Source: Marinobacter sp. (lineage in GTDB: Bacteria; Pseudomonadota; Gammaproteobacteria; Pseudomonadales; Oleiphilaceae). Taken from it: a stretch of 64,000 bases of DNA. Of this stretch, positions 6,608 to 52,928 are shown piece after piece; the first letter of the stretch is position 1, and each line of letters begins with the position of its first letter. The translations under genes and the position numbers were made by a program. The notes under the pieces are model-generated. The model was not told the DNA's origin and made no database searches. It saw nothing but the letters and a program-made list of their open reading frames with translations. The DNA lies in the NCBI GenBank assembly GCA_014359475.1, contig JACIZI010000009.1:1-64000 (forward strand), written 5' to 3'.

Positions 6608-7672
6608 ATGACTGAGCTGAAGAATGACCGCTTGCTGCGTGCCCTGATGCGCCAGCCTGTGGACCGTACACCGGTATGGATGATGCGCCAGGCTGGCCGC
6701 TACCTGCCGGAGTATCGCGCCACCCGGGAGAAAGCCGGTGATTTTCTCAGTCTGTGCAAGAATACACCGCTGGCCTGCGAGGTGACTCTGCAGCCTCTGG
6801 AGCGTTATCCGCTGGATGCGGCCATTCTGTTTTCCGACATCCTCACCATTCCGGATGCCCTGGGGTTGGGCCTGTATTTCGAAACCGGCGAAGGCCCCAA
6901 GTTCCGCAATGTGATCCGTTCCGAAGCGGATGTGGCGGCGCTGCCGAAGCTCAAGGCCGAGGTGGATCTGGACTATGTGATGAACGCGGTCTCCACCATC
7001 CGCAGAGAGCTGAACGGCCGGGTGCCGCTGATCGGCTTCTCGGGCAGTCCCTGGACCCTGGCCACCTACATGATCGAGGGTGGATCTTCCAAGAACTTCG
7101 CGGAAGCCAAGAAACTGATGTACGGTCAGCCGGAGGTGATGCACCGTCTGCTGGACCATCTGGCGGATGCGGTGATCGACTATCTGAACGGCCAGATCAG
7201 GGCCGGTGCCCAGGCGGTGCAGATTTTCGATACCTGGGGTGGCGTGCTGAGTCATTGGGCCTACGAGGAGTTTTCCCTGCGCTACATGAAGAAAATTGTG
7301 GCCGGGCTGATCCGTGAAAATGACGGGCGCCGGGTGCCGGTGATTCTGTTTACCAAGAATGGCGGTCAGTGGCTGGAGTCCATTGCCGATTCCGGGTGCG
7401 ATGCGGTGGGCCTGGACTGGACCACGGATATCGGCAATGCCCGTGCCCGGGTGGGGGACCGGGTGGCCCTGCAGGGAAATATGGATCCGGCGATGCTGTA
7501 TGCGCCGAAGGAGCGGATTCGTCAGGAGGTGGCGGATATCCTCAAGCGGTATGGTTCGGGGCCGGGGCATGTGTTTAACCTTGGGCATGGGATCACGCCG
7601 GATGTGGATCCGGAGCATGCGGGGGCGTTTATTGAGGCCGTTGTTGAATTGAGTCCTCAGTATCATTCCTGA
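6608..7672 (+). CDS. hemE: Uroporphyrinogen III decarboxylase
   Basis: Decarboxylates the four acetate side chains of uroporphyrinogen III to give coproporphyrinogen III in haem synthesis; a cytosolic homodimer without cofactor. The signature [11 protein letters not shown] is at residues 27-37. The catalytic aspartate is expected at Asp77 within FSDIL. The second family signature ([17 protein letters not shown]) is also present. Length is 354 residues, standard. The start at 6608 follows the gltD stop by one base and matches the conserved N-terminus. No conventional terminator follows; structured repeat R1 begins 24 bp downstream. Confidence 0.98.
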
Positions 7673-7695
7673 TAAGACTGCTGGCTTGGGAGCGG

Positions 7696-7807
7696 GAGCC
7701 GGATCGGGGGCCTTTTTCAGGAAACGCCCGTAAATACGTCCATGTAGGGCTCGGCTCTGGCCATCCATGGCCAGAGACGTTCCTGAAAAAGGCCCCCGAT
7801 CCGGCTC
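7696..7807 (-). repeat. Structured intergenic repeat, copy R1 (canonical orientation minus)
   Basis: A perfect 27-bp outer stem (7696-7722 with 7781-7807) encloses two small hairpins. Read on the minus strand the interior gives CGT, hairpin 1 with loop ATGGAT, the conserved CCGAGCCC, hairpin 2 with loop ATGGAC, then TTTACGGGCGT. The same interior order occurs at 8354-8467, 36413-36603 and 52815-52928 with different outer-stem sequences. There is no T-tract on either side. Confidence 0.9.
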
Positions 7808-7869
7808 TTATCAGCCTGGCAGTTATCGCTTAATGAATTCTTGCTAAAAGCGCTCGCTCCGTTTTCCTC

Positions 7870-7899
7870 TTGGCTTCCCTGCCATCTCCGTTCTATAGT
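7870..7899 (+). promoter_or_regulatory. Candidate promoter for the PilZ-domain gene
   Basis: TTGGCT (7870-7875) and TATAGT (7894-7899) are spaced 18 bp and lie about 40 bp before the TTG start. The -10 matches 5 of 6 consensus bases and the -35 matches 4 of 6. Confidence 0.4.
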
Positions 7900-7939
7900 C
7901 GAATTAGTCCATAACAAAAACACCGATCAGGAGAGAGCC

Positions 7940-8311
7940 TTGCCGACCGGCCGTAATGAGAAACGTCGTTTCCATCGAATCCAGTTTGATGCCCCCTGCG
8001 AGCTGCACTGGAAGGATGAGGTGTGGGACGCGGAGGTGCTGGATATTTCCCTCAAGGGCGTGCTGCTCAGCCGGCCCGGGAACTGGACCATGCCGCTGGG
8101 GGAGCCCTGTGAGTTGATTGTTTACCTGAATGATCGCGAAACCGGGATTGTGATGGCGGTTTCATTGCGTCATGTGGAGGATGAGCGTCTGGGGTTCAAG
8201 TGTGAGTACATAGATCTGGAAAGCGCCAGTCACCTGAAGCGGTTGGTGGAGCTGAACCTTGGCGACCAGGCGCTGCTTGATCGTGAGTTTGCGCACCTGA
8301 TAGACCAATAA
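7940..8311 (+). CDS. Small single-domain PilZ protein (putative c-di-GMP receptor)
   Basis: A 123-residue protein consisting almost only of a PilZ domain, the common cyclic di-GMP-binding module. The ligand motifs are present: RRFHR at residues 9-13 (the R-x3-R type) and D35-x-S37-x2-G40 in DISLKGV. I favour TTG at 7940 because AGGAGAG lies just upstream and the protein then starts four residues before the conserved RNEKRR; a longer reading from 7841 has no such support. The target process is not evident. The gene stands alone, bracketed by repeat copies R1 and R2 in opposite orientation. Confidence 0.85.
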   Translation: MPTGRNEKRRFHRIQFDAPCELHWKDEVWDAEVLDISLKGVLLSRPGNWTMPLGEPCELIVYLNDRETGIVMAVSLRHVEDERLGFKCEYIDLESASHLKRLVELNLGDQALLDREFAHLIDQ

Positions 8312-8353
8312 ATGCCTTAATTTTCCGTGAGGATATACCTCCGTTGCTAGCTC

Positions 8354-8467
8354 GGAGTGGTTGCGGGGCTGGTTTTCAGGACCGTCTGCAGCCAGGGATG
8401 GCTGCAGCCGAGCCCCCCAGGGATGGGTTTACGGGCGTGTCCTGAAAACCAGCCCCGCAACCGCTCC
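8354..8467 (+). repeat. Structured intergenic repeat, copy R2
   Basis: A 28-bp outer stem (8354-8381 with 8440-8467; one position pairs only as G-U in RNA) encloses hairpin 1 (CTGCAGCC, loop AGGGAT, GGCTGCAG), the conserved CCGAGCCC, hairpin 2 (CCC, loop AGGGAT, GGG) and TTTACGGGCGTG. It starts 43 bp after the PilZ gene and ends 27 bp before the radA stop, so it lies between converging genes. Confidence 0.92.
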
Positions 8468-8493
8468 AGCCCCCAAAGCACGCAGGCTACAAG

Positions 8494-9870
8494 TCAGAGG
8501 TCTTGCAGGGCATCCAGCGCTTCAGACAGTTTGGTGACGGGGATGACGTTCATGCCTTCCACCGGCTTGCGGGGTACGTTGGCCTTGGGGACGAGGGCAC
8601 GGGTGAAGCCGTGTTTGGCGGCTTCGTAGATGCGTTCCTGGCCGCTCGGGACGGGGCGGATTTCGCCGGAGAGGCCGACTTCGCCGAAGATGACCAGGTC
8701 CTGGGGCAAGGCGCGGTCGCGGAAGGAGGAGACGATGGCCGCCAGCAGGGCCAGGTCGGCGCTGGTTTCGGCGACTTTCACGCCGCCCACCACATTCACA
8801 AACACATCCTGGTCGGCTACATGCATACCACCGTGCCGGTGCAATACGGCCAGCAGCATGGCCAGCCGGTTCTGATCGGTGCCCACGGCCACCCGTCTCG
8901 GGTAACTTCCCTGGGCCATGTCCACCAGCGCCTGAATCTCCACCAGCATCGGCCTGGTGCCTTCCCAGACCACCATCACCACACTGCCGGGTGCGGCTTC
9001 TTCGCCACGGTTCAGGAATATGGCGCTGGGGTTTTTCACTTCCTTCAGGCCCTGTTCCAGCATAGCGAACACACCCAGTTCATTCACCGCTCCGAAGCGG
9101 TTCTTGATGCCCCGCAGGGTGCGGTAGCGGCTGTCGCTGGAGCCTTCCAGCAGGATGGAGCAGTCGATCATGTGCTCCAGCACCTTGGGGCCTGCCAGGC
9201 TGCCGTCTTTGGTGACGTGGCCGACCAGGAACAGGATGGTGCCGGTCTGTTTGGCAAAGCGGGTCAGGTAGGCGGCGCTCTCCCGGACCTGGGAGACGGA
9301 GCCGGGGGCGGATTCAGTGTCCGCTACGTGCATCACCTGGATACTGTCCACCACCAGGATCTTCGGCTGCTCCGCTTCGGCGACCTGGATGAGGCGTTCA
9401 ACACTGGTTTCGGACAGCATTTTCAGGTCTTTGGTGGGGACCCCCAGGCGCTTGGCGCGCATGGCGACCTGTTGCAGGGATTCCTCACCGGTGACGTAAA
9501 GGGCCGGGGTTCTTGCGGCCAGGTTGCAGACCGCCTGCAGCAGCAGGGTGCTTTTGCCGGCACCGGGGTGGCCGCCCATGAGTACCGCGGAGCCCTCCAC
9601 CAGGCCGCCTCCCAGAACCCGGTCGAACTCCTGAATGCCGGTGCTGATGCGGGCTTGTTCAGCCAGGCTGACTTCGTCCAGGCTTTTGACCTGGGACAGG
9701 CTGCCGGCGTAGCCCTCAAAGCGGGCGCTGCGGGCACCTTTGCCGGGGGCGGAAACACCGCGCACTTCCTTGATGGTGTTCCAGGCCTGGCAGGCTGTGC
9801 ACTGGCCTTGCCACTTGGAGTAATCCGCACCGCACTCGGTGCATACAAAGGCGGTTTTGGCTTTGGCCAT
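8494..9870 (-). CDS. radA: DNA repair ATPase RadA (Sms)
   Basis: A RecA-family, DnaB-like helicase that extends branches at recombination intermediates. N-terminal zinc finger uses Cys10, Cys13, Cys24 and Cys27. Walker A GGHPGAGKST is at residues 99-108. The RadA-specific KNRFG motif lies near residue 257, and the C-terminal third is the Lon-protease-like domain (VVGGVKVAETSADLA). Length is 458 residues, standard. It is encoded downstream of ettA on the same strand after a 70-bp gap, so co-transcription is likely. Confidence 0.97.
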   Translation of the reverse strand: MAKAKTAFVCTECGADYSKWQGQCTACQAWNTIKEVRGVSAPGKGARSARFEGYAGSLSQVKSLDEVSLAEQARISTGIQEFDRVLGGGLVEGSAVLMGGHPGAGKSTLLLQAVCNLAARTPALYVTGEESLQQVAMRAKRLGVPTKDLKMLSETSVERLIQVAEAEQPKILVVDSIQVMHVADTESAPGSVSQVRESAAYLTRFAKQTGTILFLVGHVTKDGSLAGPKVLEHMIDCSILLEGSSDSRYRTLRGIKNRFGAVNELGVFAMLEQGLKEVKNPSAIFLNRGEEAAPGSVVMVVWEGTRPMLVEIQALVDMAQGSYPRRVAVGTDQNRLAMLLAVLHRHGGMHVADQDVFVNVVGGVKVAETSADLALLAAIVSSFRDRALPQDLVIFGEVGLSGEIRPVPSGQERIYEAAKHGFTRALVPKANVPRKPVEGMNVIPVTKLSEALDALQDL

Positions 9871-36360: not shown

Positions 36361-36414
36361 AGGCCGAAGATGAAGTGAGCCGACCTTTCGGAAGGCTGCG
36401 GATGAAGTAAGCCG
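36361..36414. repeat. Imperfect direct repeat before element R3
   Basis: Two 22-bp units, 36361-36382 (AGGCCGAAGATGAAGTGAGC onward) and 36393-36414, agree at about 18 of 22 positions with a 32-bp period. They abut the outer stem of R3. Confidence 0.6.
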
Positions 36415-36603
36415 GTGGAGGGGGAGGTGGTTTCCGGAACCGTCTCTGGCCATGGATGGCCAGAGCCGAGCCCTACAGGGGTGAGGCCGAGCGTTTATGA
36501 AGCGAAGCTTCATGCGACAGACTCACGACCGCAATCTGTGATTGCGGGCCGGACCCGCTTGCGGGGATTCACGGGCGTGTCCCGAAAACAGCCCCCTCCA
36601 CCG
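36413..36603 (+). repeat. Structured intergenic repeat, expanded copy R3
   Basis: The outer stem begins with 12 perfect pairs (36413-36424 with 36592-36603) and then continues imperfectly. Hairpin 1 (CTCTGGCC, loop ATGGAT, GGCCAGAG) and the CCGAGCCC and TTCACGGGCGTG flanks match the other copies. Hairpin 2 is replaced by about 85 bp containing three extra hairpins: ATGAAGC/GCTTCAT (36497-36513), CGCAATC/GATTGCG (36530-36546) and CCCGC/GCGGG (36554-36565). It lies 68 bp after fkpB. Confidence 0.85.
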
Positions 36604-36642
36604 CCGGCGGGCGACATACTCCAACACATTCCGGATCATAAG

Positions 36643-52814: not shown

Positions 52815-52928
52815 GCAAGGGGCAGGGTAGCGCTTTCCGAAACCGTGGAGCGCCAAGGATGGCGCGACCCGAGCCCCCCATGGATGGGTTCACGGGCGTG
52901 TTTCGGAAAGCGCTACCCTGCCCCTTGC
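52815..52928 (+). repeat. Structured intergenic repeat, copy R4
   Basis: A perfect 29-bp outer stem (52815-52843 with 52900-52928) encloses CGT, hairpin 1 (GCGCC, loop AAGGAT, GGCGC), the conserved CCGAGCCC, hairpin 2 (CCC, loop ATGGAT, GGG) and TTCACGGGCGTG. Stem sequence is unrelated to R1-R3. It occupies the middle of the 350-bp pgeF-clpB gap. Confidence 0.93.

Follow-up and report, generated by a model that had tools for sequence, protein, structure and literature searches.

Four intergenic elements in a 64,000-nucleotide stretch of Marinobacter sp. (positions 1 to 64,000 of contig JACIZI010000009.1; hereafter, the window) belong to a dispersed family that, judged by sequence comparison, apparently adds a new branch to a type of mobile miniature repeat that is already known. 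The reading that we find, on balance, probable is that of an intergenic miniature repeat resembling the Yersinia element YPAL and overlapping the TwoAYGGAY motif, in which the GGA-bearing strand would be transcribed and would bind CsrA through two hairpin loops. The evidence comes from the conserved junction and its covariation, the strand asymmetry of stem mismatches, and the sequence and spacing of the loops, and it has to be weighed against several explanations at the level of DNA or of mRNA ends.

The four window copies and the extent of the family

As the initial annotation had proposed, the four copies share a three-way-junction layout, with a conserved interior and private, paired outer stems in both the sequence and the RNA folds (Table 1). 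The junction runs from the outer stem through CG-U-hairpin 1-C-CG, A, GCCC-hairpin 2-TTYAC-GGGC and GT back to the outer stem; the short form measures 114 bp, and its outer stem of ~29 bp is near-perfect in the three window copies of this form. Two parts of the earlier description needed revision: the layout lies on the plus strand in copies 2, 3, and 4, whereas copy 1 has it on the minus strand only, and it is common to the three short copies, whereas copy 3 carries ~85 nt extra inside the hairpin 2 loop. RNA fold z-scores on the GGA strand were −10.6 to −11.2 for the three short copies and −5.2 for the long copy.

All four copies had been placed within 70 bp after a stop codon, and the measured distances to the outer stem are 22 to 66 bp: 22 bp past hemE (URO-D) for copy 1, 42 bp past a PilZ-domain gene for copy 2, 66 bp past fkpB (FKBP_C) for copy 3, and 55 bp past pgeF (Cu-oxidase_4) for copy 4, the Pfam domains being consistent with the gene names originally given. 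The genes beyond the copies encode a KaiC/Lon_C (radA-like) protein, LYTB (ispH), and ClpB according to Pfam. Copy 1 is antisense to both hemE and the PilZ gene, and copy 2 also lies 26 bp from the stop codon of the convergent radA-like gene. An ordinary terminator had been noted as absent, in agreement with the count of zero U-tract terminators in positions 7600 to 8560, which cover two of the four copies.

Table 1. Element copies, predicted CsrA sites, and the additional domain of the long form in the window
Feature	Position	Strand	Basis
Copy 1, short form, hemE / PilZ gap	7695..7808	-	R1 137.4 bits, R2 111.5 bits, RNA fold
Predicted CsrA site ATGGAT, loop of hairpin 1 in copy 1	7763..7768	-	A.GGA at element offset 40
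Predicted CsrA site ATGGAC, loop of hairpin 2 in copy 1	7738..7743	-	A.GGA at element offset 65
Copy 2, short form, PilZ gene / convergent radA-like gene gap	8354..8467	+	R1 141.2 bits, R2 112.8 bits, RNA fold
Predicted CsrA site AGGGAT, loop of hairpin 1 in copy 2	8394..8399	+	Sequence
Predicted CsrA site AGGGAT, loop of hairpin 2 in copy 2	8419..8424	+	Sequence
Copy 3, long form, fkpB / ispH (LYTB) gap	36412..36607	+	R1 82.1 bits, R2 65.1 bits
Predicted CsrA site ATGGAT, loop of hairpin 1 in copy 3	36452..36457	+	Sequence
Copy 3 extra structured domain in hairpin 2 loop, approximate limits	36481..36565	+	Alignment and consensus fold, 7 long forms
Copy 4, short form, pgeF / clpB gap	52815..52928	+	R1 138.9 bits, R2 110.9 bits, RNA fold
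Predicted CsrA site AAGGAT, loop of hairpin 1 in copy 4	52855..52860	+	Sequence
Predicted CsrA site ATGGAT, loop of hairpin 2 in copy 4	52880..52885	+	Sequence

Within the genome, the exact pattern CCGAGCCC-N10-20-TTNACGGGCGT was matched 35 times (17 forward and 18 reverse), some matches at contig ends being a single copy counted twice, while the reversed control pattern gave no match on either strand. A covariance model built from 27 copies (R1) gave 109 matches, many of which are antisense echoes because the outer stem is near-symmetric. Removal of echoes and repeated loci left 70 sense matches in the extracted loci, some of them cut or doubled at contig ends, and 61 of these were long enough for a comparison of stem arms, with no duplicates among them. 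The covariance search, named beforehand as the test that could refute the family, returned at least 61 full-length copies in the genome, as well as matches in all 24 congeners examined (between 3 and at least 87 in each). Several contigs of the assembly (C5, C9, C14, C18, C19, C22, C24, C29, C44, C51, and C85 of G000) end within or near a copy, as short-read assemblies break at long inverted repeats; near the start of C44 there is, in addition, a long G run resembling an artefact.

The family extends well beyond the genus. Of 13 genomes that belong to the same order but to different families, R1 matched 3, and a second model (R2), built on an alignment of 113 short copies from four families (A4), matched at least 81 of 370 gammaproteobacterial genomes and at least 70 of 273 genera, under stricter filters and with no more than 10 candidates per genome scored. 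Among 397 genomes drawn from the phylum, R2 matched 39, 38 of the same class and one, marginally, outside it (G746, E 6.5e-4). The core pattern occurred in at least 120 stretches of named genomes, 80 of those listed being given as loci; the listed matches include Marinobacter, Stenotrophomonas, Xanthomonas, Rheinheimera, Halopseudomonas, and Microbulbifer, and also Alteromonas, Methylotuvimicrobium, Sodalis, Yersinia similis, and others. Spread by plasmids was considered and rejected, as a blastn search with copy 2 found no match in 72,556 plasmid records.

Covariation, strand asymmetry, and CsrA-type loops

The predicted pairing is well conserved. In the MAFFT alignment of 27 copies (A1), 93.1% of cells were paired, against 70.2% after shuffling; in A4, which was picked from R1 matches, has only 23 copies from the genome itself, and was compiled without the long forms, four misfits, and the majority of partial copies, the values were 88.4% and 57.4%, with 1570 double changes against 501 in the shuffled control. 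A two-sided change occurs somewhere in A4 in all 29 outer-stem pairs and all 10 hairpin 1 pairs. Invariant in 113 of 113 copies are AGC ahead of hairpin 2, its A.GGA loop, and GC behind it. By eye, hairpin 1 stems fall into two types, plain or with tandem G-A mismatches, and such mismatches are known from TwoAYGGAY hairpins, according to the consulted part of PMC4333381.

The insert of the long form lies in the hairpin 2 loop and has helices of its own, some of which covary among 7 aligned long forms. It was seen at ~85 nt in five copies of the genome (36481-36565 of the window; L093:4168-4385, L021:585-803, L104:969-1183, and L112:2472-2689) and in copies of two congeners (G010, L153; G022, L138), and in an Rfam scan of the insert no family attained its own threshold. 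The insert may represent a nested element or an additional domain for binding. In long forms the second GGA loop, that of hairpin 2, is lost, which counts against a two-site CsrA reading.

The consensus of CsrA/RsmE sites is ANGGAN, with A/U-CANGGANG-U/A and the SELEX consensus as further statements of it. Both hairpin loops of the repeat fit ANGGAN, and they do so at dimer spacing, with 22 to 25 nt between the loops in 113 of 113 copies of A4. In hairpin 1 the A, G, G, and A are present in 107, 112, 108, and 109 of 113, and both N positions are free. In one genome (G027, family f4), G-C has replaced C-G as the closing pair of hairpin 1, with ANGGAN kept in the loop. When 83 matches were picked by the hairpin 2 pattern alone, a selection independent of the covariance model, the 34 nt upstream contained A.GGA in 69 and GGA in 82, against 12.7% for A.GGA in shuffles. 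On these sequence grounds, which make a strong case, both loops likely bind CsrA.

The genome has one csrA gene. Across the genomes compared, csrA was detected in 96 of the 98 with the element and in 228 of the 272 without it (Fisher p 6.5e-5, uncorrected for phylogeny, with the presence lists matched by eye), an association that is confounded by phylogeny and genome reduction. The two element bearers lacking csrA (G212 and G403) are drafts, and their family-mates have the gene.

Mismatches in the outer stems differ between the strands. Over 136 elements, all with at least 11 of 16 Watson-Crick pairs in a register set by such pairs only and none too close to the end of its locus, the GGA strand had 114 G-T against 18 A-C mismatches; 69 elements leaned to G-T and 11 to A-C, all elements being treated as independent with kinship uncorrected. 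The ratio was 17:5 in the genome itself (30 elements), 74:9 in named genomes (70), and 23:4 in relatives (36). In fixed alignment columns, stem G-U and A-C stood at 123:63 in A4 and at just 18:11 in A1, the latter weighing against the CsrA-binding RNA reading. Hairpin-internal pairs gave 25:12 in A4 and 2:24 in A1, the reversal in A1 arising because hairpin types carry fixed A-C mismatches. Among controls, other long inverted repeats of named and syntenic loci gave 25:26 over 68 on an arbitrary strand and 41:10 with each on its better strand, so single ones can be equally lopsided; ordinary hairpins past stop codons gave 11:6 over 50.

Split by gene context, G-T to A-C was 36:5 in convergent gaps, 25:8 in tandem sense, 20:3 in tandem antisense, 14:0 in divergent, and 19:2 in edge positions. 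As antisense copies keep the excess, read-through from the upstream gene is not the whole story. There is thus good evidence that a single-stranded fold of the GGA-bearing plus strand is under constraint, and RNA is the likelier form of it than folded DNA, which would also be expected to favour G-T over A-C. Taken together, the ANGGAN loops at 22 to 25 nt and the G-U excess on one strand point to an RNA function on that strand.

Under the CsrA-binding reading, the GGA-bearing strand of the repeats would likely be transcribed and act as RNA rather than as single-stranded DNA, a CsrA dimer would bind the two hairpin loops of a copy, and dozens of copies together would either compete for CsrA or mark host transcripts by adding CsrA sites to them. 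A wider version, which we put forward only tentatively, holds that YPAL, the Yersinia small RNA Ysr224, TwoAYGGAY, and the Marinobacter repeats might form one gammaproteobacterial mobile superfamily that disperses a two-site CsrA-binding RNA, with CsrA titrated by dozens of decoys; in this version, the RNA-type stem constraint seen even in antisense copies would point to a promoter of their own or to movement via an RNA intermediate. Paired CsrA-type loops and an RNA-type constraint on one strand would then unite YPAL, TwoAYGGAY, and the Marinobacter repeats in a single testable role. Mobile repeats would tune a global regulator and constitute a scattered reserve of CsrA-binding RNA across the genome, and predictions of CsrA regulons in many genera would overlook a large class of sites.

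Placement, mobility, and alternative explanations

Copies were found in 42 convergent and 10 divergent gaps, against a Marinobacter background of 39 and 66 that includes the copy gaps; this set is restricted to copies that lie clear of locus edges and of predicted ORFs, which removes 11 of 61 in the genome and 31 of 110 in named genomes, and all context counts carry some error from the codon-usage ORF caller. In a second set that adds syntenic relatives, the counts were 38 convergent and 18 divergent. Single tandem copies were sense in 28 cases and antisense in 16 in the first set, and 28 and 32 in the second; of the copies no more than 100 bp from a stop codon, 36 were sense and 53 antisense. 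Orientation with respect to neighbouring genes is near random, which we counted against the CsrA-binding reading. A simple sense 3'-UTR element was rejected as the sole model, as the tandem singles of the first set run both ways and the loops persist in both orientations.

Copies also lie in a preferred orientation to one another. Among 62 pairs of close neighbours (at most 300 bp apart), 50 are head to head (-/+), 5 are +/-, and 7 run the same way; the head-to-head share is 14 of 14 in the genome's own set, 19 of 22 in G027, G029, and G034, and 17 of 26 in named loci. Separately, head-to-tail tandem arrays with a period of ~180-235 bp were observed (L091, L176, and L197 of G034; L298; G554:C1:94415-95661), and Xanthomonas has BIME-like clusters of four mostly alternating elements (L343:3605-4278, L324:811-1529, L359:6690-7534).

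Comparison of relatives revealed filled and empty sites. At a first locus (locus A), the site is empty in G010, and the copy of G003 is, by eye, flanked on both sides by GCCGGCG at a palindromic target; G016 and G023 have the same flanks with one mismatch, also by eye, and G014 and G007 have a different copy on the opposite strand. The flanks are likely a 7-bp target duplication, observed at this one site and possibly in part a stem extension. Inversion in place was rejected, since the opposite-strand copies have unrelated stems, and separate insertions or replacement are therefore likelier. Origin of the stem from an inverted target duplication was likewise discarded, the stem arm being missing at the empty site. 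At a second locus (locus B), whose site limits could not be fixed, G014 and G023 have an empty site; four others carry a copy, that of G007 with a different stem. Near pgeF, R1 found a sense copy in 3 of the 24 congeners, a reversed one in one (G002), and none in 20. In the hemE-PilZ and radA-PilZ gaps (L141-L165), both elements recur at matching positions and in matching orientations across several congeners, and the radA-side element has a different interior subfamily in a cluster of them.

The outer-stem arms of the 61 copies are no more similar to one another than column-shuffled arms. The stems are therefore private, and copying of the whole element including its stem was rejected on the same ground; private stems would arise either via fast paired evolution or via the insertion process.

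Much of this fits a miniature transposon acting as DNA, whose plus strand folds as single-stranded DNA and whose transposase reads the junction and loops, the likeness to CsrA sites being incidental. The near-random gene orientation, the likely target duplication at a palindrome together with presence and absence between relatives, and the head-to-head pairing all favour it, and G-T over A-C also suits a strand-specific DNA hairpin. We nevertheless consider it rather unlikely: ANGGAN is present in both hairpins, with the N positions free and close to the CsrA consensus; the tandem G-A mismatches and the extra covarying domain suit RNA; and a search for Y1_Tnp genes gave two, IS605-like by eye, whose loci hold no copy.

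The convergent excess, weaker in the second gap set, and the very stable stems would suit a 3'-end element, either a bidirectional terminator or an RNase barrier, that ends or protects mRNA in either reading direction, as REP/BIME sequences do. We judge this improbable, as the conserved junction, the two ANGGAN loops, and the strand asymmetry are needless for a simple hairpin, and a terminator role in particular is not favoured because a U-tract is lacking in the region around two of the four copies and both orientations occur past stop codons. That the repeats form a conventional family of RNA genes, transcribed from a promoter of their own and unlinked to mobile DNA, is very improbable given the empty and filled sites, the YPAL homology, and a sole promoter-like site in one scanned region that adjoins neither copy, even if own transcription is what the asymmetry kept in antisense and divergent copies would lead one to expect and a GATAT lies upstream of the stem in some copies.

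Relation to YPAL, TwoAYGGAY, and other known systems

The family had been left without a name. This stood insofar as no Rfam family reached threshold in the window copies, whereas comparison places the repeats as kin to YPAL/RU-2 and Ysr224 and in overlap with TwoAYGGAY. The literature was consulted in part, including PMC2864571, PMC2267715, and PMC9788540; the portions searched contained no paper joining YPAL with CsrA, no tested function for TwoAYGGAY, and no proposed ligand for YPAL.

YPAL/RU-2 is described in the consulted parts of PMC2229807 and PMC2759123 as a palindromic miniature DNA insertion of Yersinia, ~168 bp long. R2 covered its full model on a Y. similis locus (L356) at 75 bits (E 2.3e-20), and by eye the sequence of this locus corresponds to that published for RU-2. 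On the 20 loci of TwoAYGGAY (RF01731), R2 scored at least 72 bits at 3 (4 matches), 21 to 31 bits at 3 others, and under 16 bits or not at all at the remaining 14. With the YPAL locus matched and only a minority of RF01731 loci matched, the kinship read from these sequences is firm for YPAL and partial for RF01731.

Like YPAL/RU-2, the Marinobacter repeats have the junction core with both GGA hairpins, are dispersed and intergenic, and likely duplicate a palindromic target (at one Marinobacter site). Their flanks are weakly conserved, with GATAT (−19 to −22) in 11 and CAGGCT (+13 to +17) in 15 of 60 copies, which, added to the 114-bp junction, suggests an element of ~155 bp, against ~168 bp for YPAL. 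The private stems and the long form were observed in Marinobacter, and the comparison with YPAL covers the core.

Ysr224 (Rfam RF02770), a Yersinia sRNA counted among the most prevalent and described as temperature-responsive in the consulted part of PMC9029176, overlies the YPAL core. It exceeded its threshold on the Y. similis locus (126.5 bits) and on a Sodalis locus (L350, 82.9 bits); at its gathering score of 70 bits it gave nothing in the window, and the scanned Marinobacter loci reached at most 33 bits. Its annotation lies on the strand opposite to the GGA strand, which weighs against the CsrA-binding reading.

With TwoAYGGAY (RF01731, clan CL00106), the repeats share two GGA-loop hairpins on the same strand within an outer stem, and the hallmark of that motif, two hairpins with AYGGAY-like loops, is present in the family. 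TwoAYGGAY was earlier proposed by others as CsrA-binding, without a test (PMC4333381, part consulted). At its gathering score of 43 bits, RF01731 matched no window copy, and it gave none in 16 further loci at E 0.1; it matched weakly six of eight copies in three loci of the genome (best 41.4 bits, below 43). In the class search at E 0.001 it was found in 23 of 370 gammaproteobacterial genomes, 14 above threshold, with 0 of 14 controls and 0 matches in the Marinobacter genome itself (G000). Six genomes are common to the R2 and RF01731 lists, and four head-to-head pairs occur among RF01731 matches.

Like REP, BIME, and REPIN sequences, the repeats are high-copy, intergenic, and palindromic, with alternating orientation; unlike them, they are much larger and form a three-way junction. 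A RAYT/REP system was rejected: no RAYT gene flanked by copies was found, and R1 had no match in the loci of the two Y1_Tnp genes of the genome (L113:1501-1866 and L114:1501-1812). One of these genes lies beside an apparent TnpB gene on the other strand, in the IS605 style, and the second is apparently a shortened version without a TnpB neighbour. Finally, GGA in hairpin loops and paired sites at dimer spacing recall the CsrA decoys of the RsmZ/CsrB type. Those are single-locus sRNAs with many GGA sites, eight in RsmZ according to the consulted part of PMC13287468, whereas the Marinobacter family is a dispersed repeat with two.
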